Assembly (NCBI GenBank): GCA_003285105.1
Contig: CP030158.1
Location: 434,001 to 498,000, forward strand
DNA length: 64,000 nt
From: Roseithermus sacchariphilus
GTDB lineage: Bacteria; Bacteroidota; Rhodothermia; Rhodothermales; MEBIC09517
Direction: 5' to 3'
In this document: positions 40,634 through 58,428 of the stretch, one piece after another
How the letters are laid out: each line of letters starts with the position of its first letter
Position numbering within the stretch: the stretch's first letter is position 1
Position numbers and translations under genes: made by a program
Notes under the pieces: model-generated
Database searches by the model: none
The model's input: only the letters and a program-made list of their open reading frames with translations
What the model was told of the DNA's origin: nothing

Positions 40634-43066
40634 CTACTGCGGCCGGAAACGGTACAGCGAGCCCGCCGGCGTCTCGAAGGGCACGACCTGCTCGCCGTAG
40701 CGAATCCGGCCGGGCCGGCCCCGCGTCGACAGGATCACCGCCTCGACGAGGTCGCCGTCCTGCCAGGTGATGGCCACCTCGAAGCCGCCACGCGCGCGCA
40801 GGCCCGCGACGCGGCCGGTCGGCCAGGCCTCGGGGAGGGCCGGCAGCAGGTGGATCTCGTCGCGGTGGCTCTGCAGCAGCATCTCGGCGATGCCGGCCGT
40901 CGCCCCGAAGTTGCCGTCGATCTGGAACGGCGGATGCGAGCCGAAGAGGTTGGGATACACCCCGCCGCCCTGCGAGCCGTCCCCGTCGCTCCCCGAGAGG
41001 GTCAGCACGCGGTCGAGCAGCCGGAAGGCGTGGTTACCGTCGTAGAGCCGGGCCCAGGCATTGATCTTCCAGGCGAGGCTCCACCCGGTGCCGCCGTCGC
41101 CGCGCCGTTCGAGCGACCGCCGGGCGGCCCGGAGCAGCGCCGGGGAGCCTTCGACGGTGAGTTGCCGCCCCGGATAGAGGCCGTAGAGGTGCGAGAGGTG
41201 ACGGTGGTGCGGATCCTCCTCGGGCCAGTCTTCCCGCCACTCCTGCAACTGCCCCCACCGCCCGACCTGGAGCGGATGCAGGCGATCCCGCGCCTCGCGC
41301 AGCGCCTCACGCAGCGGATGGTCCAGCCCGAGCACCTGGCTCGCTGCGATGGTGTTGGTGAACAGCTCGTGGATGAGCATCAGATCCATCGTCGCCCCCA
41401 TGCTGACCGCAGCCCGGGCGCCGTCGGGCAGCACGAAGCTCAGCTCCGGGGAGGTCGACGGCGCGGTGACGAGGTAGCCCTGCTCGTCCTCGATGAGCCA
41501 GTCCAGGCCAAAGCGGGCGGCCTCCTTCAGGACGGGGTAGATCCGTTCGAGATAGGCCGTATCCCCGCCGAAGGCATAGTGCTCCCAGAGGTGCGCTGCG
41601 AGCCAGACGCCTCCCATGGGCCACAGAGCCCACTTCGGGTCGCCGTGGCCGAAGGCCCCCACCGGAGCCGACTGCCGCCAGAGGTCGGTGTTGTGATGGG
41701 CGACCCAGCCATCGACGCCGTAGTTGACCCGGGCCGTCTCGGCCCCCGTCCGGGCCAGCTCCGTGACCATGCGCAGCAGCGGCTCGTGGCATTCGGCGAG
41801 GTGCGTCACCTCGGCCGGCCAGTAGTTCATCTCTGCGTTGATGTTGAGCGTATAGTTGGAGCTCCACGGCGGCTGCACGCTGTCGTTCCAGAGGCCCTGC
41901 AGGTTGAGCGGCTGCGTCCCCGGCCGCGACCCGGCTATCATCAGGTACCGGCCGTACTGGAACAACAGCTCGACCAGGAGCGGGTCTTCGGCGCCGTGGC
42001 GGGCGATGCGCTCGTCCGTCGGCATGGATGCCGAGCCGGCACCGCCCAGGTCGAGGGCGACGCGGTGGAAGAGCGCCTGATGGTCGGCCACGTGCGCGGC
42101 GTAGAGCTGCGGGTACGTCGCCCCCCGGGCCAGATTCAGAAAGCCCGCCGCCGTCGCCTCCGGGTTACGCCCGGCCCCGGAGGGCACCGGCTCGAAGCCG
42201 CCGTAGCTGGTCGCCGCGCTGAGGATCAGCACGACTTCGGACGCATCGCGCACGGTCATCCCCTCCGGTGTCACCGCGGCGACTCCGTCGGTCTGGAGCC
42301 CGTAGAGCTGCACGTCGAACGTCATCCCCGGTCCGTCCTCCTCCCCGGCATAGCGGATGGGCTCGCCGGAGTCGTAGTAGTTCGGATCGACGTGGTAAGG
42401 GGCTTTGCCGCGCAGCGCCAGGATCTCGCCGCGGGGCTCGATGCGATGCCGCAGCGGGCTGCTGAGCGCCGCCCGGAGCGACAGCCGCCCCGGCTCGCTC
42501 GCCGTCAGCCGGGCCACGAGCACCTGGTGCGGGTGCGAGACGAAACAGGTACGGGTGTAGGCAACTCCGTCGAGGGTATAGGATACCCGCGCCGTGGCCG
42601 TGTCCAGGTCGAGGTCACGTTCGTAGTCGCGGACCCGGTCTGCGGCGGCCGGGCCGTGCTCGAGGTGCAGGCGCAGATCGGCCATGGGCAGATACGACTG
42701 CGTGTAGGGCCCCATCATCTCCTTACAAAGCCGATCCGCCTCGACGTACCGGCCCTCGCGCAGCAGGCGCCGGACCTCGGGCAGCACCTCCCGCGCCCGC
42801 GGGTTGTTCCAGTCGCCCGGCGGGCCGGACCACAGCGTGTCTTCGTTGAGCTGCAACCGCTCCGTCTCGACCCCGCCGAAGACCATGGCTCCCAGCCGCC
42901 CATTGCCCAGCGGCAGGGCCTCGACCCATTGCTCGGCCGGCCGGCGGTACCACAGCCGCAGCTTCCCCGGAGCGGCCGCCGGGGAGGACGGCTCCGTCCG
43001 GCGGCTCAAGAGCCACCCGCCGGTGGCGAGCACGGTGTGGTGGAGAAAATCCCGCCGGGTGATCAC
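40634..43066 (-). CDS. GH95 family alpha-L-fucosidase-like glycosidase
   Basis: An 810-residue exported enzyme. TRRDFL at residues 3-8 followed by a hydrophobic stretch suggests a Tat signal. The GH95 N-terminal domain begins LRLWYRRPAEQWVEALPLGN, with GRLGAMVFGGVETERLQLNE close behind. The (alpha/alpha)6 barrel contains NINAEMNYWPAEVTHLAECH, the motif holding the catalytic-assisting asparagines, and APSTSPE, where the glutamate is the likely general acid. Known GH95 enzymes remove terminal alpha-1,2-L-fucose or L-galactose from polysaccharides and act by inversion. Export fits extracellular or periplasmic glycan breakdown. Linkage is not determinable here. Confidence 0.93.
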   Translation of the reverse strand: MITRRDFLHHTVLATGGWLLSRRTEPSSPAAAPGKLRLWYRRPAEQWVEALPLGNGRLGAMVFGGVETERLQLNEDTLWSGPPGDWNNPRAREVLPEVRRLLREGRYVEADRLCKEMMGPYTQSYLPMADLRLHLEHGPAAADRVRDYERDLDLDTATARVSYTLDGVAYTRTCFVSHPHQVLVARLTASEPGRLSLRAALSSPLRHRIEPRGEILALRGKAPYHVDPNYYDSGEPIRYAGEEDGPGMTFDVQLYGLQTDGVAAVTPEGMTVRDASEVVLILSAATSYGGFEPVPSGAGRNPEATAAGFLNLARGATYPQLYAAHVADHQALFHRVALDLGGAGSASMPTDERIARHGAEDPLLVELLFQYGRYLMIAGSRPGTQPLNLQGLWNDSVQPPWSSNYTLNINAEMNYWPAEVTHLAECHEPLLRMVTELARTGAETARVNYGVDGWVAHHNTDLWRQSAPVGAFGHGDPKWALWPMGGVWLAAHLWEHYAFGGDTAYLERIYPVLKEAARFGLDWLIEDEQGYLVTAPSTSPELSFVLPDGARAAVSMGATMDLMLIHELFTNTIAASQVLGLDHPLREALREARDRLHPLQVGRWGQLQEWREDWPEEDPHHRHLSHLYGLYPGRQLTVEGSPALLRAARRSLERRGDGGTGWSLAWKINAWARLYDGNHAFRLLDRVLTLSGSDGDGSQGGGVYPNLFGSHPPFQIDGNFGATAGIAEMLLQSHRDEIHLLPALPEAWPTGRVAGLRARGGFEVAITWQDGDLVEAVILSTRGRPGRIRYGEQVVPFETPAGSLYRFRPQ

Positions 43067-44644: not shown

Positions 44645-44968
44645 TGAAGCCGGGCGCCTGAGACCGAACCACGGCCCGGCGACCCGGCGGGAAAAACCAG
44701 CCCCAAGGTCGGCCCCGCCCCGGCCCGGAGCAACAGCCGGCCTCCACCGCGCCTGTGGCGCAGACCCGTACGACGCTGCCGGGGCTTCCCCTACGCCCCC
44801 ACCCACGACCGCAGAACGGCGAGGGGCCAGGGCACATCCGATGTGGTTATCTTCCCGGCCTTCGTCCTTCCCCCACCTTCCTTCCCGTTCCCCCTGCACC
44901 ATCCCATCCCCGGATCCGGTATGTTACCGGCTCCCTCGCTGTTCGTCTTCCCCACGGACGCCCTCGTC
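44645..44968. other. non-coding gap between divergent CoA-transferase and PlsC genes
   Basis: A 324-bp interval with promoters expected for both divergent genes. I see no hairpin terminator, repeat or conserved small gene. In-frame ATGs upstream of plsC at 44843 and 44921 exist, so plsC could begin earlier and shorten this gap. Confidence 0.5.
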
Positions 44969-45739
44969 ATGGACCGCCTCCTCTCCCTCGCCTACCTGTT
45001 CTTCTTCGTGGCCACATCGGTGGTCTTCTTCGCCGTGGCCGTCCTGATCTGGCTGGTCACGGTACCCTTCGACCGGCGGCTGGTGCTGCTGCATCTGTAC
45101 TCCTGTTTCTGGGCATCCTGCTACCTGTGGACGCTGCCGGGCGTCCGCACCACCGTCTCCGGGCGCGAGCACGTGCGGCGGGGCGTGGCCTACGTCATCG
45201 TCTCGAACCACCAGTCCGCCCTCGACATCCTGGCGGCCTACCGGCTGTTCATCCCCTTCAAATGGGTTTCCAAGGCCGAGAACTTCCGCATTCCGCTGAT
45301 CGGGTGGAACATGGTGCTGAACCGGTACATCCGGCTACACCGCGCCCGCCGCAGCAGCATCCGGCAGATGCTCGAGGCCTGCGAGCGCCACCTGCGGCAG
45401 GGCAGCAGCGTCTACCTGTTTCCCGAAGGCACGCGCTCCGAGACCGGCGAGGTCGGCCGCTTCAAGCCGGGGGCCTTTGCGCTGGCGCAGAAGCTGCGCG
45501 TGCCCGTCCTGCCCATCGCCATCCACGGCACGCGCGACGTCCTGCCCAAGCGCAGCCTCCGCGTGCGCGGGCGGCATCACATCCACGTGCAGGTGCTCCC
45601 GGAGATCTCCCCGGACACGCTGGCCCCGATGACCCCGGAGGGCGCCGGGGCCTTCGTGCGTGCGCGGATCGTGGCGGCGCTGCAGGAACGAGACGAGCGA
45701 GAACGGGACGAGCGGGAACGGCCGGGGAGCGAGCGCTAG
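44969..45739 (+). CDS. plsC: 1-acyl-sn-glycerol-3-phosphate acyltransferase PlsC-like
   Basis: Adds the second acyl chain to lysophosphatidic acid in membrane phospholipid synthesis. The 256-residue protein has two N-terminal membrane helices and the catalytic NHQSALD motif (His81, Asp86), followed by FPEGTRS (151-157) for the phosphate and GAFALAQKLRVPVLPIAIHG. The last 25 residues are a charged ER/DE repeat beyond the family core. Start at 44969 puts the first helix immediately after MDRLLSL. Its stop overlaps the stop of the convergent gene by the shared CTAG at 45736-45739. Confidence 0.9.
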   Translation: MDRLLSLAYLFFFVATSVVFFAVAVLIWLVTVPFDRRLVLLHLYSCFWASCYLWTLPGVRTTVSGREHVRRGVAYVIVSNHQSALDILAAYRLFIPFKWVSKAENFRIPLIGWNMVLNRYIRLHRARRSSIRQMLEACERHLRQGSSVYLFPEGTRSETGEVGRFKPGAFALAQKLRVPVLPIAIHGTRDVLPKRSLRVRGRHHIHVQVLPEISPDTLAPMTPEGAGAFVRARIVAALQERDERERDERERPGSER

Positions 45740-48700
45740 AAGTCCAGCCCGATGGAGAGGTAGACCTGCCGTTGGCCGAAGCGGTGGCCGTCGAAGGGCC
45801 AGGCGAAGTCGAGGCGGACGGGATAGCCGAGCAGGAGGGTGCGCAGGCCGAAGCCGGCGCCGACGATCAGGTCGTCCAGCACCCGTTCGGTGTCCGGCTC
45901 GGGCGCGGCGGCATCCTCCGCGGTGCGGCGCGGCTGGGTGCGCAGGAGGTTGAGGCGCGGGTCGTTGCCGCGGCCGCCCCAGACGCTGCCGGCATCCAGG
46001 AAGGCGGTGCCCTGCAGGTTGTAGAGCGGCACCACGGGCAGCGGCCCCGGCAGCAGCGCGGCGATCAGCGGGAAGCGGAACTCGGCGTTGATCAGCCCGA
46101 AGTGCGAGCCGTTGCGCGAGTTGATGGCCGTGCCGCGCAGCGGCAGGACCGGCAGCGCCAGCCCGAAGTCCTCGGCCTCGGCGATGGGGAAGCCGTTGAC
46201 CTCATCGAAGCGGCGGTTGATCCAGTTCTGCACGCCGGCGGTGTAGAAGCGCTGCTGGCCGGGGCCCCAGGACGTGCCGCCGGAGGCCCGGAAGGCAAAC
46301 CCGTAGCGCGCCCGGCCGAAGGTGAGGTACGTGCGGGCGTCGGCCAGCAGGGAGATGAACTGCACCCGCCGCCCGTCGAAGCCGACCGGGCTTCCGGCCA
46401 GGCTCACGGCGAAGCGACTGCCCCCGGCGGGATAGAGGAACCCCGGCGTGGTCACGTCCCGGGTGAAGGTGACGGAAGGGTACATCAGGCGGTGCGTGGT
46501 CGCCGGGCGGGCCGGGTCGCCGATGTCGGCGCGGCTGATGCCGATCATGGCCAGCTCCAGGTCGACGCGGCGGAACTTGTCGAGCGGGTAGCTGGCGCCG
46601 AGGCTGAGGCCGTACTGCCGGTAGCGGTAGTACGTCTCCACGGTGTAGTCCGGCAGGAGGCGAGAGACGTGATGACCGGCGAAGCTCCAGTCGACGCGGC
46701 GCGGCAGGTAGTTGTAGGCGATCAGGTAGTCCGAGTTGCGCAGGTCGATGAGCAGGTTGGTCGCCACATAGATCTGGTGGTTGCCCAGCATGTCGCTGAA
46801 CATCATCTGCGTCACGCCCTGCACCCCGTAGAGCATGTCGTAGCCGGCCGTGCCGTAGACGATGTCCGGCGAGAAGTTGAGCTTGTATTTCTTTTCCCGG
46901 TACCGCCCGTCCGCGTCGATGTGGTCGCGCGGTTCGAAGCGGTTGAGCAGGAACGCCTCCTCCGGGTCGTCCTCGACGGCTTCCTCGAAGGCATCGCTGA
47001 ACGTGTAGTTGCGGAAGTCGACCCGCAGGCTGCCGTAGGCGGACGTATCCGCAGACGCCGCGCCGGGGTCCGGTGGGGGATCTCCCCGGAGGCGGGCGGC
47101 CAGCGCGGCCAAGCCCGGTTCCTCGTCGGGGTCGAAGAGGAGCGGCGTTCGCGAGGCCAGCATCTCGCTGCGGCGGCGCGGCGTCCGGTTGTAGGCGTAG
47201 GCGACCCCGTCGGCGGCGTCGCGGAGGAAGGGGTTGGCCTGGCGCAGCGAGGCCGGGGCCAGCGCCAGGGCCGGGGCGGGCTGCGCGGTTTCCTGCATCA
47301 CCCGCTGCGCCCACACGCTCGGCACCAGCACGTCGCGGTCCAGCCGTCGCTCGAAGGGCGTCTTCATCAGGAAGATGGTCGGCGTGCCCTCTTCCAGCGC
47401 CACCAGCGCCGCCTTCTTGCCGTCGGCCGAGAGCGACACCTGCGAGAGGCCCACGACCAGGTCCGTCAGCGGCCGTTCGCGGCCCGTCACCAGGTCCTTC
47501 TCATAGAGGTTCTCGATGCCGTTGCGGTCCGAGATGAACAGCAGGCGGTCCGGGTCGGCCCCGAAGCGGGGGCTGCGTTCGTCCCACAGCTCGTCGAAGG
47601 TCAGCCGCTCCAGGCGGCCCGAAGCCAGCGTCAGGCGGTAGAGATCGAACTGGTCGTAGTCGTGGTCGGCGATGCGGACGTGCTCTGCCGAGTAGCGCCC
47701 CGGCACGGTGTACGATCCGCGGTCGCTGTGAAAGACGAGGGCCGAGCCGTCCGGGCTCCAGGCCGGCTCGTGGTCGCTGAAGACATCGCTGGTGTAGTTG
47801 ATCGTCTCCCGCGTCTGCAGGTCGAGCACGTAGATGTCGCTCTGCGCATCCATCGACGCCGAGAAGGCGATGCGGTCGTCCACGGGGCTCCAGGCCACGC
47901 TCACGATCTGGTCGATCTGCGGCACCCGGTAGTGCGTCGCGCGGCCCGACTCGACGTCGACCACGGCGATGGCGTCGGCGGGGCCGCTCTTGACGGCCAG
48001 CGCGAGCCGGCGGCCGTCCGGGCTCCAGGTCAGCCCCGGGGACAGGATGCGCAGGCTCTCGAACTCTGCGCTCGTCTGGCCCTCGATCAGCTTCTTCAGG
48101 ATCTTGCCGTCGTTGGCGCTGGCGATGTAGACGTCGAAGAGGCCGCTGCGCGTGGTGATGAAGGCCAGGCGGTCCCCCTGGGGCGAGAGGGCCGGGCTGG
48201 TGTTGTAGAAGCCGGCGTTCTCGCGGGTGATGATCGGGCGGGCGATGTCGCCGAGGTCCTCCCGCGCGGCCACCTCGGGATAGTGGATCTCCTTGAGGGT
48301 CTTCTGCCAGCGTTTGGAGAGGTCCTCCAGCGAGAGCCCCGTGGCGTGCTTGAAGCTGCCCTCGACCGAGCGCGTCAGGCGGAGGCGCTGGAGCACTTCG
48401 CCGATCTTCTCGCGGCCGTACTGCTCGGCCACGTAGTCCCACACGCTCTGCCCGGCCTGGTAGGAGGCAAACCCGCTCAGGTAGGCGATGGGCGGCAGGT
48501 TGTCGTGGAGGACGGCGTCCCGGACCCAGTTGTCGGCCTCGGTGCTCCACCCTTCCGAGGCGTATTCGGCCAGGCCCTCGTTGAACCAGTGGGGGATGCG
48601 CAGCTGGATGTTGTTCTGGATGATCGACTGGATCGTCCCCCCGTAGAACATGTCGTTCAGCACGGCGTGGACGAGCTCGTGGTGCAGCGTCTGCCGGTAG

Positions 48701-49131
48701 CTGCGATAGTCCCCCACGAACGGCACGGCCACGCGGTTCTTGAACAGCTCCGTGACCCCGCCGATGCCCTCGGCGTACGCCGGCAGGTCGACCGCGTTCG
48801 TCACCGCGAAGTCGTTGTGACTCTGGTAGACGATGATCGGGATGCGGTCGGAGATCTGGTGCTGGAAGAGCTCGCTGATCTGCAGGTAGGCGTCCTCGGC
48901 GGCGCGGGCGGTGAAGTCGGCCAGGTCATACCCGCCCTGGTCGTAGTAGACGTCGAAGTGCCGGGATTGCAGGTAGAACCACTCCTGCTGGCCGTACTGC
49001 ACCTTGTTCTTGCCGAAGCGGAAGTACTGGGCCCACACGCCGGCCGGCTCCAGGCTCCCCAGCACCAGCAGCACGGCCAGCAGCCATCCCGTCCGCCCGA
49101 CCGTCGATCTGTTACGCCTGCGGTGGTGCAT
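45736..49131 (-). CDS. gluzincin-like protease/beta-propeller/outer-membrane barrel protein
   Basis: A 1131-residue exported protein with three modules. After a signal peptide (LLAVLLVLGSLEPAGVWAQ) comes a metalloprotease-like domain: HELVH (151-155) with Glu185 in NEGLAEY matches the gluzincin zinc site. Residues about 300-650 contain repeated SPDG/SPxGD blades (LSPQGDRLAFITTRSG, WSPDGRRLALAVKSG, WSPDGSALVFHSDRG) of a TolB/PD40-type propeller. The last 350 residues look like a beta-barrel of the BamA/surface-antigen class, ending LSIGLDF with a terminal phenylalanine. Such proteins are known in Bacteroidota but uncharacterised. Protease activity is predicted, not shown. Confidence 0.87.
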   Translation of the reverse strand: MHHRRRNRSTVGRTGWLLAVLLVLGSLEPAGVWAQYFRFGKNKVQYGQQEWFYLQSRHFDVYYDQGGYDLADFTARAAEDAYLQISELFQHQISDRIPIIVYQSHNDFAVTNAVDLPAYAEGIGGVTELFKNRVAVPFVGDYRSYRQTLHHELVHAVLNDMFYGGTIQSIIQNNIQLRIPHWFNEGLAEYASEGWSTEADNWVRDAVLHDNLPPIAYLSGFASYQAGQSVWDYVAEQYGREKIGEVLQRLRLTRSVEGSFKHATGLSLEDLSKRWQKTLKEIHYPEVAAREDLGDIARPIITRENAGFYNTSPALSPQGDRLAFITTRSGLFDVYIASANDGKILKKLIEGQTSAEFESLRILSPGLTWSPDGRRLALAVKSGPADAIAVVDVESGRATHYRVPQIDQIVSVAWSPVDDRIAFSASMDAQSDIYVLDLQTRETINYTSDVFSDHEPAWSPDGSALVFHSDRGSYTVPGRYSAEHVRIADHDYDQFDLYRLTLASGRLERLTFDELWDERSPRFGADPDRLLFISDRNGIENLYEKDLVTGRERPLTDLVVGLSQVSLSADGKKAALVALEEGTPTIFLMKTPFERRLDRDVLVPSVWAQRVMQETAQPAPALALAPASLRQANPFLRDAADGVAYAYNRTPRRRSEMLASRTPLLFDPDEEPGLAALAARLRGDPPPDPGAASADTSAYGSLRVDFRNYTFSDAFEEAVEDDPEEAFLLNRFEPRDHIDADGRYREKKYKLNFSPDIVYGTAGYDMLYGVQGVTQMMFSDMLGNHQIYVATNLLIDLRNSDYLIAYNYLPRRVDWSFAGHHVSRLLPDYTVETYYRYRQYGLSLGASYPLDKFRRVDLELAMIGISRADIGDPARPATTHRLMYPSVTFTRDVTTPGFLYPAGGSRFAVSLAGSPVGFDGRRVQFISLLADARTYLTFGRARYGFAFRASGGTSWGPGQQRFYTAGVQNWINRRFDEVNGFPIAEAEDFGLALPVLPLRGTAINSRNGSHFGLINAEFRFPLIAALLPGPLPVVPLYNLQGTAFLDAGSVWGGRGNDPRLNLLRTQPRRTAEDAAAPEPDTERVLDDLIVGAGFGLRTLLLGYPVRLDFAWPFDGHRFGQRQVYLSIGLDF

Positions 49132-49291: not shown

Positions 49292-50587
49292 TCAGGCCTG
49301 ACGCAGCCAGTGCAGCACCTCCCGCGGGCTCGGCTTCTTGCCGTACATCAGGATGCCGACGCGGTAGACCCGCCCCGCCAGCCAGACCACCCCCAGGAAC
49401 GTCGCCGCCAGGATCGCCAGGGACGCCAGCGTCTGCCACCACGGCACGTCCGTCACGGCCATGCGCACGACGGCCGAGATCGGCGAGGTCAGCGGAATCA
49501 TCGAGAGCACCAGCGAGAGCGTCGAGTTGGGGCTCTCCACCTGCGGCACCAGCGTGTACATCGCCACGATGATCGGCAGCAGCAAGGGTAGCAGGAACCC
49601 CTGTGCATCCTGCTGGCTCTCGACGAGCGAGCCGACGGCGGCGTAGAGGCTGGCATAGAGCAGGTAGCCGAGCAGGAAGTACAGGATGAACCAGACGAAC
49701 AGCTCGGGCGGGAACGTCGGGATCGTGATGTTGGCCGCCTGCAGGATCTCCTCGGTCGAGGCCGAGTCCGGGAGGTTGAGCTGCGCCGGATCGAGAAACA
49801 GGCTCACGACGGCCCCGGAGGCCATGCTGCCGGCCAGGATCAGCGCCGACCAGACCACCATCTGCGTCAGCCCCATCGCGCCGATGCCGAGTACCTTGCC
49901 CAGCATCAACTCGAAGGGCCGCACCGAGGAGACGATCACCTCCACCACGCGGCTCGACTTCTCGTCGATCACGCCCTGCATCACGACCGAGCCGTAGATC
50001 ACCATCATCATGAAGATCAGGAACCCCATGCCGAAGCCCAGTGCGGCGAACACGCCGGTGCTGCCGGCCTCCTCGCCCTGCTCGGTCAGCTTGACCATGC
50101 GCAGCGGCACGTTGCTGCTGACCTCCCGGATCAGCTCGGGGTCGATGTTCCGGCGCCGCATCCGCTCCTCCTCCACCACGCGCTCGATGCGCCGGTCCAG
50201 CCGGTTCTCGAAGATGGAGCCCCCGCCCTCGGCCGAATAGTAGGCCACCTGCCCGTCGCCCTCGATCACGTCGGCCGGCAGGACGAGGTAGCCGTCGTAC
50301 GTGCCGGCGATGACGGCCTCGCGCAGCGCGGCCTCCGTCTCGGCGGCCGGCACGAACCGGATGGCCTCGTCCGACGCCGCCACGAGCGCCTCCTCGAGCA
50401 CGCCGGTGCGGTCCACCACCGCGATCGTCCGCGTCTCGTCCTCCTCGAAGGCCGAGGCCGCCAGCAGGATGATGACGACGAGAAACACGACGATGGCCAG
50501 CGGCAAGAGCAGCGTCGTCAGGACGAAGCCTTTCGACCGCACCCGGCGCAGGTACTCGCTCCTGGCCACGATCCAGGTCTTGTTCAT
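49292..50587 (-). CDS. ABC transporter permease (NatB/ABC-2 type)
   Basis: A 431-residue inner-membrane export permease. A first helix (VLTTLLLPLAIVVFLVVIIL) is followed by a large extracytoplasmic domain and then about five helices in the C-terminal half (for example MGFLIFMMMVIYGSVVMQGV and LFVWFILYFLLGYLLYASL). This is the layout of NatB-like ABC-2 exporters. The ATPase gene lies 12 bp upstream, in the order ATPase-permease on the same strand. Sodium export is known for NatB of Bacillus, but the substrate here is not determined. Confidence 0.9.
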   Translation of the reverse strand: MNKTWIVARSEYLRRVRSKGFVLTTLLLPLAIVVFLVVIILLAASAFEEDETRTIAVVDRTGVLEEALVAASDEAIRFVPAAETEAALREAVIAGTYDGYLVLPADVIEGDGQVAYYSAEGGGSIFENRLDRRIERVVEEERMRRRNIDPELIREVSSNVPLRMVKLTEQGEEAGSTGVFAALGFGMGFLIFMMMVIYGSVVMQGVIDEKSSRVVEVIVSSVRPFELMLGKVLGIGAMGLTQMVVWSALILAGSMASGAVVSLFLDPAQLNLPDSASTEEILQAANITIPTFPPELFVWFILYFLLGYLLYASLYAAVGSLVESQQDAQGFLLPLLLPIIVAMYTLVPQVESPNSTLSLVLSMIPLTSPISAVVRMAVTDVPWWQTLASLAILAATFLGVVWLAGRVYRVGILMYGKKPSPREVLHWLRQA

Positions 50588-50599
50588 GGGGGATGGGAG

Positions 50600-51541
50600 T
50601 CAGGAGGTGGGGGCTACGGGCTGCGCCTGGAGGGCCGGCTCACCGACGACCTGCACGAAGATCTCGTTCAGCGGCGGCTCGACCAGTTCGAAGCGGGTGA
50701 TGACGTCGACGTGTTGCAGGGCGGTTTCGAGCACGTGCCGGGGCGAGGCCCCGTCGAGCAGGCGCAGCTCGGCGTGGTGCAGGCTCCGGGTGATGGGGCG
50801 TACCACGCCCTGGCGCTCCAGGACCCCGATGAAGCCCGCGTCCCCGTCGAAGTCGATCACGATCGTGTTCTTCCCGAAGCGTTGCTTGACCTCGCGGAGC
50901 CCGCCCTGCAGCACGATCCGCCCGCGGGAGATCAGGCAGATGTCGTCACACAACTGCTCGACCTGCTCCATGCGGTGCGAGGCGAAGAGGATGGTGCGGC
51001 CGTCGTCCTTGAGTTCTAGGATGATGTCCTTGAGCAGTTCGGCATTGATCGGGTCGAGGCCGCTGAAGGGCTCGTCCAGGATCAGCAGGTCCGGGTCATG
51101 CAGGATGGTCGAGATGAACTGCACCTTCTGCTGCATCCCTTTGGAGAGCTCCTGCGTCTTCTTGCCGGCCCAGTCCCGCGCACCGAAGCGGTCGAGCCAG
51201 TAGCGGGCCTTCTCGCGGGCCTCGGCCGGCGCCAGGCCTTTGAGTTCGGCCAGGTAGAGCAGTTGCTCGCCCACCTTCATCTTCTTGTAGAGGCCCCGCT
51301 CCTCCGGCAGGTAGCCCATGCGCGCCTGGCTCCACGGCCCGACGGGACGGTCGCCGAAGCGCACCTCGCCTTCGTCCGGCACGGTGATGTAGGCGATCAT
51401 CCGGATCGTGGAGGTCTTGCCGGCGCCGTTCGGGCCGAGGAGTCCCAGGATCCGGCCGGGCCGGGCCTCGAAGGCGACCCGGTCCACGGCGGTGAACCGC
51501 CCGTAACGTTTCGTCACGTGATCGACGGCGAGGACGGGCAT
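50600..51541 (-). CDS. ABC transporter ATP-binding protein
   Basis: A 313-residue ATPase subunit. GLLGPNGAGKTSTIRM (around 34-49) is the Walker A, LSKGMQQKVQF the ABC signature, and LLILDEPFSGLDPINAELL the Walker B and D-loop; the switch histidine is in LFASHRM. A C-terminal regulatory extension of about 90 residues follows the core, as in many ABC-2 exporters. It pairs with the permease gene 12 bp downstream. Confidence 0.93.
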   Translation of the reverse strand: MPVLAVDHVTKRYGRFTAVDRVAFEARPGRILGLLGPNGAGKTSTIRMIAYITVPDEGEVRFGDRPVGPWSQARMGYLPEERGLYKKMKVGEQLLYLAELKGLAPAEAREKARYWLDRFGARDWAGKKTQELSKGMQQKVQFISTILHDPDLLILDEPFSGLDPINAELLKDIILELKDDGRTILFASHRMEQVEQLCDDICLISRGRIVLQGGLREVKQRFGKNTIVIDFDGDAGFIGVLERQGVVRPITRSLHHAELRLLDGASPRHVLETALQHVDVITRFELVEPPLNEIFVQVVGEPALQAQPVAPTS

Positions 51542-52474: not shown

Positions 52475-52598
52475 GCCGTCAGCTTTCAGCCGTCAGCTTT
52501 CAGCCGTCAGCGAACAGCCCTGAAACGACGGAGCCGGCAACGCCGCTTCGACGGAAAGCCAACCGCTGAAAGCTTGAAAGCCGACCGCTGAAAGCTAT
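52474..52598. repeat. heptamer repeats forming inverted pair between convergent genes
   Basis: Left: GCCGTCA, GCTTTCA, GCCGTCA, GCTTTCA, GCCGTCA. Right: GCTGAAAGC sequences in the opposite orientation, ending inside the ruvC stop region. GCTTTCAGC and GCTGAAAGC form an inverted pair, so transcripts of either gene could fold here, although the loop is about 70 bases. Confidence 0.75.
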
Positions 52599-53161
52599 TT
52601 CATCCGATCCGGGTTGGCGCGGAGGAAGGCTTCCCAGCCGCTGTAGCCGGGGCGGGACGCCTCGGGGCCGCGATGGGCATGGCACAGGGCCACGGCCAGG
52701 GCGTCGGACGCATCCAGCCCCATGGTCGTAGCGTCGCCGGTGCCGTCGCCGCTGCCGTCGCCGGTCAGGCGAAGGATGGAGCAGACCATGTAGCGAACCT
52801 GCTCCTTCGAGGCATTGCCGTTGCCCGTGACCGCCTTCTTCACCTCCTTCGGCGTGTACTGCCGGGCCGGGATGCCGCGGTTCAGCACGGCCAGCATGGC
52901 CGCCGCCTGCGCCCGGCCGAGCTTCAGCATCGACTGCGGGTTGCGGCCATAGACGGGCATCTCCAGCGCGCACTCGTCCGGCAGGCACCGCTCGATGACC
53001 TGCGTCAGCCGGTCGTAGATGTGCTTGAGGCGCAGGGGATGGCTCTTCTGCGCGTCGAGCCGGAGCACGCCGTACTCCACCAGCCGCTCCGCACCCGCCT
53101 CCACGTCGATCACCCCGTAGCCGGTGTACTGTGTGCCAGGGTCGATGCCGAGAATGATCAT
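52595..53161 (-). CDS. ruvC: Holliday junction endonuclease RuvC
   Basis: RuvC resolves Holliday junctions with RuvAB. The 188-residue protein has the catalytic Asp7 in GIDPGTQYTGYG, Glu66 in ALEMPVYGRN and the acidic pair in DASDALAVALCH. GKxGRAQ is present as LGRAQAAAMLAV. An unusual acidic/glycine repeat (GDGSGDGTGDATT), encoded by 9-bp DNA repeats, is inserted just before the last acidic motif and is absent from E. coli RuvC. It is followed downstream of yebC, a gene order common in bacteria. Confidence 0.96.
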   Translation of the reverse strand: MIILGIDPGTQYTGYGVIDVEAGAERLVEYGVLRLDAQKSHPLRLKHIYDRLTQVIERCLPDECALEMPVYGRNPQSMLKLGRAQAAAMLAVLNRGIPARQYTPKEVKKAVTGNGNASKEQVRYMVCSILRLTGDGSGDGTGDATTMGLDASDALAVALCHAHRGPEASRPGYSGWEAFLRANPDRMK

Positions 53162-53303: not shown

Positions 53304-54050
53304 TCACGAGAGGGCTTCTTCCGGCAGCGCGTCGTAGTCGAGCGTGGTGTAGACGGCCTGCACGTCCGGGTGCTCCTCGAGCGCGTCGAGCAGCTTCAGG
53401 ACGGGGCGGGCCTGCTCGGGGTCGAGGCGGACCGTGGCGGTGGGGATGCGTACCAGGCCGGCTTCCTTCGGCTCGATGCCGGCGGCGAGCAGCGCGTTCT
53501 GCACGGCCGCGAAGTCCTCCACGGAGGAGGTCACGACGAAGACGCCGTGCTCCTGCTTGAGGTCTTCGGCGCCGGCGTCGGCGACGATCTCGAAGACCTC
53601 AAGTTCGTCGAGTCCCTCGGCGTCGATCTCGAACTGCCCCTTCCGCTCGAACTGATAGGCCACCGAGCCCGACTGCCCCAGGCTGCCACCGTGCTTGCCG
53701 AAGAGGTGCCGGATGTCGGCGACGGTGCGGTTGGTGTTGTCGGTGAGGGTTTCGACGAAGATGGCAACGCCGTGGGGCGCATAGCCCTCGTATGCCATCT
53801 CCTCGTAGTCGGCCCCCTGAATCTCACCGGTACCGCGCTTGATGGCGCGCTCGATGTTGTCTTTGGGCATGTTCTCGCCCTTCGCCTTCTCGACGGCGAG
53901 GGCCAGGCGCGGGTTCATGTCGGGGTCCCCGCCTCCTTCGCGCGCGGCGATCATGATGTCCCGGGTGATGCGAGCCCAGATCTTGGACTTGCGTGCGTCC
54001 GCGACGGCCTTCTGGCGCTTGATCTTCGACCACTTGTTGTGTCCAGCCAT
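53304..54050 (-). CDS. YebC/PmpR family transcriptional regulator
   Basis: A 248-residue DNA-binding protein with the family opening MAGHNKWSKIKRQKAV, RITRDIMIAAREGGGDPDMN and NIERAIKRGTGE. Upstream in-frame codons reach 54125 but the conserved N-terminus starts at 54050. Members regulate transcription or help ribosomes at proline stretches (TACO1 line). Gene order yebC-ruvC is preserved here, 142 bp apart on the same strand. Confidence 0.96.
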   Translation of the reverse strand: MAGHNKWSKIKRQKAVADARKSKIWARITRDIMIAAREGGGDPDMNPRLALAVEKAKGENMPKDNIERAIKRGTGEIQGADYEEMAYEGYAPHGVAIFVETLTDNTNRTVADIRHLFGKHGGSLGQSGSVAYQFERKGQFEIDAEGLDELEVFEIVADAGAEDLKQEHGVFVVTSSVEDFAAVQNALLAAGIEPKEAGLVRIPTATVRLDPEQARPVLKLLDALEEHPDVQAVYTTLDYDALPEEALS

Positions 54051-54203
54051 AATCGGTGTCCAGCCCTGATCGGTCGTGTCGAGGGGATAACGTGGCATCT
54101 GCGAAGGCACCGGCGCGCCGGCCACATGGGCGCGCCGGTGCCGGGCGTCATACCGCCATCGGGGGCGATGGGTTCTGCCGCCGGTGCCGCGGGGAACGGC
54201 GCC

Positions 54204-55031: not shown

Positions 55032-55235
55032 GGCGGCCTCCTCTATCGTTTGGTGAAACCGAACTCCCACATCTTCAACCTCCGCTCACAAATCCCTCAC
55101 ACTTTTTTCACGCCCGGCGGCTACCGAGGGTCCGGCGCTGGCATCACGACCTGAAAACCGCGATCATGCCCCCGGAAGCCCGGACCGTGCCTGCCGGGGC
55201 GCGTGTCCGTATTTCGTGGAATCAACCGTACCGAC

Positions 55236-56792
55236 ATGGAGAAACCTCGCCTGAGCTTCTGGCAGATCTGGAACATGAGCTTCGGCTTCCTGGGCATCCA
55301 GTTTGGTTTCGCGCTGCAGAATGCCAACGTCAGCCGCATCTTTGAAACCCTGGGAGCCTCGGTCGAGGATATCCCGATCCTGTGGATCGCCGCGCCCGTC
55401 ACGGGCCTGATCGTCCAGCCCATCATCGGGCACCTGAGTGACCACACGTGGAACCGGCTGGGACGGCGTCGACCCTACTTTCTCCTGGGCGCCGTTCTGG
55501 CCTCGGCCGCGCTCGTCATCATGCCCAACTCCCCCACGCTGTGGGTAGCCGCCGGGATGCTGTGGATCATGGATGCCTCCATCAACATCTCGATGGAGCC
55601 CTTCCGGGCCTTCGTGGGCGACATGCTGCCCTCGGCCCAGCGCACGACCGGCTTCGCCATGCAGAGCTTCTTCATCGGCACCGGCGCCGTCATCGCCTCG
55701 GCTCTGCCCTACGTGCTCACGGAGTGGTTCGGCGTGGCCAACACGGCGCCGCCCGGCGAGATCCCGGACTCCGTCAGGTGGTCGTTCTACCTCGGCGGGC
55801 TCGTCTTCCTGCTGGCCGTGCTGTGGACCGTCATCCGCACGCGCGAGTACTCCCCGGAGGAGCTGGCGGCTTTCGAGCATGCCGCCGGGCTCGATCTCGC
55901 CGGGCCGGCCGAGGAGACATCCGATCCGGTCGCATCCGCCGTCACATTTTACCGGCGGGGGGTGCTCTGGACGGCCGCCGGCCTCCTGACCAGCGGCCTC
56001 ATCTACCACTACATGCTGGCCGCCGAATTGTACATCCTCTCCATCGGCCTGATCGCCTTCGGGCTGGTACAGGCCTTCGCAGGGGTGCTGGTCCGCAGCG
56101 GGCGGGAGCGTAACGGGATGGTGACCGTCATCTCGGACCTCTACCACATGCCCCGGACGATGGCCCAGCTCGCCGTGGTGCAGTTCTTCTCATGGCTGGC
56201 GCTGTTTGCCATGTGGATCTATACGACGGCTGCCGTCACCAGCCACGTCTATGGCACCACGGACCCGACCTCGGCGCTCTATAACGAAGGGGCCAACTGG
56301 GTCGGGGTGCTGTTCGCCGTCTACAACGGCGTGGCAGCGCTCGTGGCGTTCCTGTTGCCCGCCCTCGCGCGGCGCACCAGCCGCAAGGTAACCCACATGC
56401 TGGCGCTGATCCTGGGTGGGCTGGGACTGGCCTCGATCTATGTCATCCCCACCCCCGGCCTGCTGATCCTCCCCATGATCGGCGTCGGCATCGCCTGGGC
56501 AAGCATCCTGTCGATGCCCTATGCGATGCTCACCGGCGCGCTGCCGGCGAAGAAAATGGGCACGTACATGGGCATCTTCAACTTCTTCATCGTCATCCCG
56601 CAGATCCTTGCCGCAAGCATCCTGGGCTTCTTCACCGCCGAGTTGTTCGGCGGGCAGGCGATCTACGTGCTGATCCTGGGCGGCGGCGCAATGATCCTGG
56701 CCGGCCTGCTGACCCTGCTCGTCGAGGACGTGGATGACGTCTATGCCGGCGCGACGGCCGGGACGGTGGCCGGAGAAACGTCCTACGGCTGA
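55236..56792 (+). CDS. SLC45/GPH-like sugar transporter (MFS)
   Basis: A 518-residue inner-membrane transporter with about twelve helices. [20 protein letters not shown] and [20 protein letters not shown] (with the MFS loop D-R-x-G-R-R-R-P) and [20 protein letters not shown] mark the SLC45-like sucrose/maltose transporter branch common in Bacteroidota. Start at 55236 ([11 protein letters not shown]) is typical; an earlier ATG at 55203 adds 11 residues. Its stop overlaps the convergent thioesterase stop by ten bases. A disaccharide substrate is inferred from family. Confidence 0.87.
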
Positions 56793-57193
56793 TGCACGTA
56801 GGCCTCGAACCGGGCCCGCTGCTCGGCCGTGAGCCGGTGCGGGTGCAGATCCGGGTAGCTGACGAACAACCCCACCTGCCGGCCCGTCGCCCGGAGGATC
56901 CCGTCGGGGCCGGTGAAGCGGAAGTCGATCTGCGCCGAGGTGTTGCGCAACTCGGAGATCCACAGCTCGACGTGCGCCGCCTCGCCCAGCCGGTAGGGCC
57001 GCCGATAGTCGATCTCGGTGTGCACGAGCACCGGCACCAGCCCCTGCTCCAGCATCGTCGCCACCGGCAACCCGACGGCCTCCAGCAGCTTCGTGCGGCC
57101 GATCTCCATCCACTGGACGTAGACGATGTTGCTGACGACCCCGGCGAAGTCGACCTGAAACGTGTGGACGGGCTCGATGAACGTGAGCGTCAT
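56783..57193 (-). CDS. acyl-CoA thioesterase, hotdog fold (YbgC-like)
   Basis: A 136-residue hotdog-fold thioesterase. Asp15 in FQVDFAGVVSNIVYVQWMEIGR matches the catalytic aspartate of the YbgC/FcbC type, and PVLVHTEIDYRRPYRLGE is the next family strand. It hydrolyses acyl-CoA of undetermined chain length. Separated by 41 bp from the D-threonine-aldolase-like gene upstream on the same strand, so the two may be co-transcribed; its 3' end overlaps that of the transporter gene. Confidence 0.9.
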   Translation of the reverse strand: MTLTFIEPVHTFQVDFAGVVSNIVYVQWMEIGRTKLLEAVGLPVATMLEQGLVPVLVHTEIDYRRPYRLGEAAHVELWISELRNTSAQIDFRFTGPDGILRATGRQVGLFVSYPDLHPHRLTAEQRARFEAYVHQP

Positions 57194-57234
57194 GGCAGCG
57201 AGGCGGGCAGGGTGGAACGATGCACCGCCGCCTC

Positions 57235-58428
57235 TTACTCGCCCCCCCGGCCGGAGATTCGCCGCCGCCCCCGGGCATCGACCGGCAGCGCCTCGATCAC
57301 CGTATCGCCATCGACCAGGTAGACCTCGTCCTGCGTGTGGACGGTGACGCAGGCGTGGTTGGGGACGATGCGGACGCGGTCGCCGACGTCGAAGGGCGCC
57401 CCGCCGGGCACCACTCCCCACCCGTGCTCCTCGGACAGCGCCGTGAGCCGGGCGTGGGGCAGCGGCGTCATCGTGCGGGCGTTGTAGAGCAGCCTCCCGT
57501 AGCCGTCCGTGCCGTAGCCCCCGTCGGCGGTCAGCACCTTCTTGCCGGCGTCCAGGAAGAAGCGCTCGCGGCCGGTGGGATCGCGGCGCTTGCTGATGAC
57601 CGTCGCCAGCACGGTCAGCGCACAATCCGCCCACCGCGCGCTGCCCAGGCCGACCTGCGTGGCATCGTTGAAGACGTAGTTGCCCGGGCGGATCTCGGTG
57701 ATGCGGAAGCCGTCCCGCCCGGCGTTCTCGAAGCCGGCCATCGACGGCGTGGAGCCGATGCTGAGGGCGAAGGCGCCCGGCTCGACCCCCGGCACGCCGG
57801 CGGCCCGCCAGCCGACGGCGACGTCCAGCATCCGCCCGACCGTCTCGCGGGCGACGCGCCGGAGGGCGCCGGCCTCGTCTTCGGCGTCGTGCACGGGGCC
57901 GTGGTAGGCCTGCCCCTCGTGCGTGAGGATCCCGGCGAGGCACAGCCCCGGCAGCGCCGCCACCCGCCGGGCCAGCACCTCGGCGTCGGCGTGGTGCCAG
58001 GGCACCCCCGTCCGCCCGTGGCCCACGTCGATCTCGACGAGCACGTCCGCCCGACGGCCCGCCCCGGCCCAGGCCGCCGACGCCGCCTCGGCCCCGGCGA
58101 CGGTGTCCACGCAGAACGAGATCCGGGCCCGGTCGGCCAGCCGCTGCAGGCGCGCGTGCCGCTCCGCCCCGACCACCGGATACGCCAGGCGAACGTCCTC
58201 GAAGCCGGCCGCCACGAACACCTCGGCCTCGTCGACCGTAGCGACGGTGAGCCCGCGGGCGCCACGCTCCCGCTGCCACCGGGCCAGCCGCACCGACTTG
58301 TGGGTCTTCACGTGCGGGCGCAGCGCCACGCCCTGGGCCTCGGCCGTGGCTTGCATCCGCGCCAGATTGGCCTCCAGCCGGCGACGCTCGATGAGCAGGC
58401 AGGGCGTGGGCAGATCGTCGATGAACAT
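57235..58428 (-). CDS. D-threonine aldolase-like PLP enzyme
   Basis: A 397-residue PLP enzyme with an alanine-racemase-type barrel (residues about 10-245) and a C-terminal D-serine dehydratase/D-threonine aldolase-type beta domain. [10 protein letters not shown] (37-45) holds the Schiff-base lysine, most likely Lys41; [20 protein letters not shown] and SIGSTPSM are further landmarks, and the C-terminal [18 protein letters not shown] supplies the metal-binding His/Asp segment. It cleaves D-3-hydroxy-amino acids (D-threonine or similar) to glycine and an aldehyde. Start at 58428 ([14 protein letters not shown]) matches the family N-terminus; an upstream ATG at 58482 is less likely. Confidence 0.9.

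Follow-up and report, generated by a model that had tools for sequence, protein, structure and literature searches.

The Omp85 superfamily has been defined by its barrel (Heinz and Lithgow; PMC4104836), and the same survey describes a WD40-Omp85 subfamily, in which an N-terminal propeller most similar to TolB, and not a POTRA region, precedes the C-terminal Omp85 barrel. Metalloprotease, WD40-like and patatin-like subfamilies are named among those not well characterized in the cited passages on PlpD, an Omp85 enzyme fusion that was long thought to export its own enzyme domain but retains it solely in the periplasm (PMC11116518). BepA, a metalloprotease of the periplasm, degrades outer-membrane proteins stalled at a late stage at BAM (PMC13067283). 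For the translocation and assembly module of Bacteroidetes/Chlorobi, tamB has been found in operons with the Omp85 lipoprotein TamL (PMC4494059), and Flavobacterium johnsoniae has a tamB2–tamL2 operon, as well as tamL (Fjoh_1464) and tamB (Fjoh_4592), with locus numbers far apart, whose deletion was impossible (PMC12045153).

The window, that is, the whole analyzed stretch of 64,000 nt, covers positions 434001–498000 of a 4.81 Mb single-contig genome. On its minus strand, exactly where the earlier note had placed it, lies an ORF (45736..49131) encoding 1131 aa plus stop, for whose product we use the working name PPO (protease-propeller-Omp85). The start is taken as the ATG at 49131; an alternative GTG is possible ten codons upstream. 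Read from the sequence, residues 1–34 (49030..49131) form a signal-peptide-like segment with a VWA/QYF junction lacking Cys, and the AQYF at this junction is retained in every aligned row reaching that point except L026 (19 of 20). It is followed by a gluzincin protease domain (residues 35–295, 48247..49029), a TolB-like beta-propeller (296–600, 47332..48246), a linker (601–740, 46912..47331) and an Omp85/BamA-type barrel ending in F1131 (741–1131, 45739..46911), all on the minus strand. A convergent acyltransferase gene (44843–45739, plus strand, PF01553) overlaps the PPO stop codon by 4 bases. An 810-aa ORF (40634–43066, minus strand) may, judging by its sequence, encode a glycoside hydrolase, and its N-terminus looks Tat-like.

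The three parts that the earlier note had recognized in this protein, namely a gluzincin-like zinc site, PD40 propeller blades and a barrel-like C-terminus with terminal phenylalanine, are all borne out by Pfam matches above the cut-offs: Peptidase_MA_2 (PF13485) at residues 78–280 with 45.4 bits (cut-off 32.4), PD40 (PF07676) with 51.9 bits (cut-off 20.9), and Omp85 (PF01103) at residues 831–1131 with 42.3 bits (cut-off 24). Among Pfam matches up to E 1 there is no POTRA family, no M48 family, no patatin family, by which type Vd proteins are assigned, and no PF00149, which we take to be the metallophosphoesterase family and by which the ‘Metallo’ subfamily of Omp85 proteins is assigned. The propeller has a TolB sequence match at 5.1e-13, whereas the TolB equivalog TIGR02800 scores 119.5 bits against a cut-off of 343.15. 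As its NCBIfam matches of the TolB, BamA and TamA/TamL types are partial and far under their cut-offs, PPO itself is none of these proteins.

Related loci were collected by a short-peptide-pattern scan of genome contigs, yielding 23 loci with titles referring to Bacteroidetes/Bacteroidota, Rhodothermales, Rhodothermus or Rhodothermaceae, one Candidatus Kapabacterium, or plain ‘bacterium’. A full-length AlphaFold2 model was built on 22 aligned sequences, the window protein and 21 of the 23 loci (without L023 and L030, having a broken frame; a later alignment also omits the partial L028 and L031). Its mean pLDDT is 73.3 and pTM is 0.58, confidence being good for the first two domains, moderate for the barrel and poor for the linker (pLDDT under 50 over residues 648–732). 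The propeller reading is refined by the model to a TolB-like one, as TolB (4jml_A) aligns on residues 320–597 with Z 27.3 and rmsd 2.4 over 244 aligned positions (VIA-align).

The structure prediction does contain a barrel, no barrel-less model having been obtained, and its type can be specified as that of Omp85/BamA. Deinococcus BamA (8xnb_A) aligns on residues 754–1131 with Z 22.2 and rmsd 4.6 over 313 positions, and F. johnsoniae BamA (9n2d_A) on the barrel with Z 22.2 and rmsd 4.5 over 306 positions (VIA-align). About 16 strands are counted in the model by DSSP; the first strands are modeled with low confidence, the very first at pLDDT under 50. The PLRG stretch at residues 997–1000 (46132..46143, minus strand; context PLRGT) is presumably the Omp85 loop-6 motif (V/I)RG(F/Y). 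In the set of 55 sequences described below, R999 is found in all and G1000 in 49; the chain ends in F in 53 of them and in W in one, and is cut by the contig end in one. By PF01103, the BamA fold and the invariant loop-6 arginine, the PPO barrel is assigned to the Omp85 superfamily.

Conservation was assessed on the PPO of the window and 54 relatives, 36–67% identical to it, that had at least 950 aa and a score of at least 500, and of sequences identical over the last 300 residues only one was taken; all but L012, which is cut by its contig, extend to the C-terminal end (54 of 55). All 55 sequences align over the protease, propeller and barrel, and hence the three-domain architecture is more than chance. 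The putative zinc-site motifs HELVH (residues 151–155, 48667..48681, minus strand; the numbering of Glu152 and His155 in the earlier note is right) and NEGLAEY (residues 184–190, 48562..48582, minus strand) retain H151, E152, H155, E185 and E189 in 55 of 55 sequences. Equally invariant are G186, N112, N132, R133, Y224, Q228 and Y238. Mean pairwise identity decreases from the protease (0.565) to the barrel (0.476), propeller (0.439) and linker (0.227), these means including the reference row and three pairs of sequences at least 95% identical.

By its PF13485 match and the HExxH motif with a downstream glutamate, PPO would be placed among the gluzincins of the peptidase MA clan, and E185 is the likely third metal ligand; with the ligand residues invariant and the modeled protease fold gluzincin-like, a metal site could assemble. 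The invariant site in the best-conserved domain is in line with selection on a working enzyme, and PPO may be active. The same evidence bears on a different possibility, that PPO is an Omp85 insertase or scaffold with a BamB-like propeller and a protease fold serving mainly as a binding module. Heinz and Lithgow liken WD40-Omp85 proteins to a BamA–BamB fusion (PMC4104836), but metal-site residues unvarying in 55 sequences and a protease that is the most conserved domain of the chain make this very improbable.

Folded alone (residues 35–300), the protease domain reaches pLDDT 80.9 and pTM 0.82. The highest-scoring fold match is the collagenase peptidase domain 7wss_A (Z 17.0, rmsd 4.3, 228 aligned), followed by lugdulysin 7bb9 (Z 16.2, rmsd 4.2, 235 aligned), while M1 aminopeptidases have Z of 12.5 to 14.1 among the matches listed. 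As these are largely helical domains, Z under about 13 can reflect a common arrangement, a level that the collagenase rows exceed. The best Foldseek E-value for this domain is 1.7e-4, and in a PDB search with the protease profile no match was better than E 0.2, the hits being to fem-1 homologue B.

Collagenases are secreted enzymes, and the fact that the nearest protease folds are collagenase peptidase domains could be taken as a sign that PPO acts in a type Vd-like manner, its Omp85 barrel bringing the attached protease and propeller to the outside of the cell, where they would stay anchored or be released. The fusion of an enzyme domain to an Omp85 barrel is consistent with such display, and PlpD was long assumed to work in this way, but its enzyme domain has been proved periplasmic (PMC11116518). 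Moreover, the closest folds of the propeller are those of TolB, a periplasmic protein, and two folded domains, together about 60 kDa in size, would need to get through a BamA-type barrel. We consider surface display improbable and favor an anchored protease facing the periplasm over a surface or secreted one. The suggestion of the earlier note that the protease is surface-anchored or secretion-linked is not supported, no finding placing it outside the cell; a link to secretion may still exist, since in most close relatives a pair of ABC transporter genes is located upstream of PPO.

This pair is formed by a permease gene directly upstream of PPO (49292..50587, minus strand; ABC-2 type, PF12698, 204.9 bits) and an ATPase gene upstream of the permease (50600..51541, minus strand; PF00005, 93.8 bits, PF13732, 53.9 bits), which, by domains and synteny, we take to be NatB-like and NatA-like, respectively, and call NatB and NatA. 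In the window the three genes follow each other on the minus strand in the order NatA–NatB–PPO, the NatB stop being 160 bp from the PPO ATG. Further upstream of NatA, the window contains RuvC (52595–53161, minus strand) and YebC/TACO1 (53304–54125, minus strand); both recur upstream of NatA in seven related loci (L013, L015, L018, L022, L024, L025, L029), whereas L016 and L023 have only RuvC there. A neighboring pair of ORFs, 327 aa (55164–56147, minus strand) and 362 aa (56190–57278, minus strand) long, is without Pfam matches at an E threshold of 0.001.

The recurrence of NatB could mean that PPO serves an ABC export route as its terminus in the outer membrane. Out of 20 named-record loci with upstream DNA present and PPO at least 48% identical (L009–L025, L027, L029, L030), all but L027 carry NatB upstream in the same orientation, and in 11 of these 19 the two ORFs are at most 152 bp apart. 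NatB is also directly upstream in six of nine further loci from the same order, for which about 1.5 kb upstream was read (L032, L034–L038, not L039–L041). A Borrelia ABC transporter clustered with an Omp85 protein has been proposed as an export system in the cited passages (PMC13078400). On the other hand, the remaining 8 of the 19 loci have NatB and PPO farther apart, by about 1 to 4.7 kb, and neither Nat gene was found in L026, L027 and L039–L061, most of them with only about 1.5 kb upstream. Among longer stretches, both Nat genes are present only in L087, from the same order, and L079 has ATPase matches of just 24–25%. The synteny comparison was based on translated ORFs of at least 150 aa, so that smaller or diverged neighbors may be missed, and its spacings are gaps between stop-bounded ORFs. 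On this balance, we assign an export route ending in PPO a low probability.

PPO relatives are widespread in the phylum, the profile matching 101 of 148 genomes at 1e-20, a count of events that are not independent, as draws from one phylum share ancestry. The 47 genomes without a match at this threshold belong to families f17 (30), f20 (14), f18 (2) and f25 (1). The genome of the window encodes several paralogues. L003 has all three Pfam domains above the cut-offs. L002 matches the profiles of the protease (5.3e-53) and propeller (1e-52), and weakly of the barrel (5.9e-8), and has no PF13485 or PF01103 match at 0.01. L004 matches in the protease and propeller, with a barrel match at only 0.0065 and an M48 match below the cut-off, and L006 matches in the protease and propeller, the locus ending before the C-terminus. 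The same genome has seven Omp85-domain places and no TolB above the equivalog cut-off. In a plasmid search, one relative was found, a ‘basic secretory protein-like protein’ of Salinibacter ruber, 29.9% identical with 48% of the query covered.

Gene order around PPO differs by lineage, with NatA–NatB in the close loci and a TamB-family gene in other families. This gene, of about 1500 aa, adjoins PPO in 46 of the 79 genomes examined (those of the 101 matching genomes with strong listed rows, the other 22 being left out), from 9 of 22 families. In 45 of the 46 cases TamB is upstream on the same strand, 2.1 to 3.4 kb away, and in one it is divergent. One TamB place was counted per genome, with one piece used for the split matches in G030, G066, G109 and G128; G066 was scored adjacent via a partial match, and G062 not adjacent, though having a TamB match at the end of another contig. 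None of the 46 genomes belongs to the order of the window: in families f1–f5 and f8, the genome of the window included, adjacency is observed in 0 of 12, with TamB far off or on another contig. PPO proteins having TamB beside them in three different families (L078, L088, L093) are 38.8 to 51.4% identical.

The TamB assignment of the adjacent gene is a family-level one, as judged from profile comparisons. A PDB search with a profile of 12 TamB-like proteins retrieved TamB at 6.7e-14, and Pfam gives PF04357 in three and DUF748 in seven of these 12, one of which is a subtilase; NCBIfam TamB scores are far under the equivalog cut-off. This subtilase, the L081 protein, was rejected as a TamB-like candidate. 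Likewise, TamL was considered and rejected as the identity of the 700-aa gene that separates PPO from the long gene, as this gene is RNase R. In the genome of the window, a further gene with a TamB domain is found about 3.6 kb away from one of the other Omp85-domain places (G000:C1:2362319-2364178 and 2367777-2368433), perhaps forming a TamB–TamL pair, and the longer TamB-family gene sits separately at 3690383–3694936.

The gap between TamB and PPO is occupied by RNase R in all four loci scanned (L078, L082, L088, L089), and 3-dehydroquinate synthase precedes TamB in all four loci scanned for it (L078, L080, L084, L089). In L079, RNase R is upstream of PPO and the TamB gene is elsewhere. As both RNase R and 3-dehydroquinate synthase are housekeeping genes, the TamB–PPO block may be inherited gene order only. 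Furthermore, families f17 and f20 account for 44 of the 47 genomes lacking PPO at 1e-20, and a TamB-family match at 1e-10 is present in 41 of these 44, hence TamB does not need PPO. For both reasons the TamB link is a lead and not proof, and we regard as rather unlikely the stronger proposal that PPO is a missing proteolytic part of the Bacteroidota-type translocation and assembly module, receiving or policing TamB-borne clients at the outer membrane. If it holds, client recognition by the propeller, destruction or maturation by the protease and insertion by the barrel would be united in one polypeptide. With its intact protease site on an Omp85 barrel and its adjacency to a TamB-family gene in 9 of 22 families, PPO is a concrete candidate partner or quality-control factor. 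The TamB/TamL text of PMC4494059 and PMC12045153, in the parts cited, does not mention PPO.

As the best explanation, to which we give about an even chance, we propose that PPO is an outer-membrane-anchored zinc peptidase facing the periplasm and engaged in envelope assembly or quality control on an Omp85 scaffold. PPO would be exported by Sec, and its C-terminal BamA-type barrel, judging from the fold and the terminal phenylalanine, would be inserted in the outer membrane, with the gluzincin domain and TolB-like propeller left in the periplasm below it. The propeller may bind or screen substrates, and the conserved HExxH..E site may cut those selected. PPO could thereby trim or remove outer-membrane proteins that have stalled or been wrongly assembled, or else different clients crossing the periplasm, acting near TamB in some lineages and near an ABC exporter in others. 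It would resemble BepA-like quality control made permanent through barrel fusion. N-terminal domains of Omp85 proteins are normally periplasmic, and by analogy with them in general, and with PlpD in particular, the periplasm is the most likely place of the protease and propeller. The contacts that Omp85 proteins make in the periplasm usually run through POTRAs, and the lack of a POTRA among the Pfam matches of PPO counts against the proposed explanation.

If the proposal is right, proteolysis anchored in the outer membrane and tied to barrel assembly within a single chain would be a new arrangement, and PPO offers a second test, after PlpD, of the periplasmic orientation of Omp85 enzyme fusions. 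PlpD and PPO are alike in having an enzyme domain N-terminal to the Omp85 barrel, but PlpD combines a patatin-like domain with one POTRA (PMC11116518), whereas PPO has a gluzincin domain and a propeller with no POTRA found. The comparison with BepA is that of a functional model only, a metalloprotease acting where outer-membrane proteins assemble (PMC13067283); unlike PPO, BepA and other M48 periplasmic metalloproteases are not fused to a barrel. TolB shares the propeller fold, its counterpart here being a domain of PPO and not TolB itself. The Omp85 ‘Metallo’ subfamily shares the name, and a periplasmic quality-control role has been suggested for it, but it rests on PF00149 (PMC4104836), which PPO does not match. 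A literature search retrieved no paper combining any two of peptidase MA, PD40 and Omp85. Wider searches brought up work on Omp85, TAM and BAM, and among the open-licence matches listed there was neither a study of PPO nor a description of a gluzincin domain, propeller and Omp85 barrel together. The closest described relatives are the WD40-Omp85 proteins, which have in common with PPO the TolB-like propeller, the non-POTRA N-terminus and the Omp85 barrel (PMC4104836). Compared by published description and not by sequence-cluster membership, PPO fits this subfamily, with one difference: in PPO a peptidase precedes the propeller, whereas the cited WD40-Omp85 section describes none, and the word ‘peptidase’ is absent from the main text of that source (PMC4104836).
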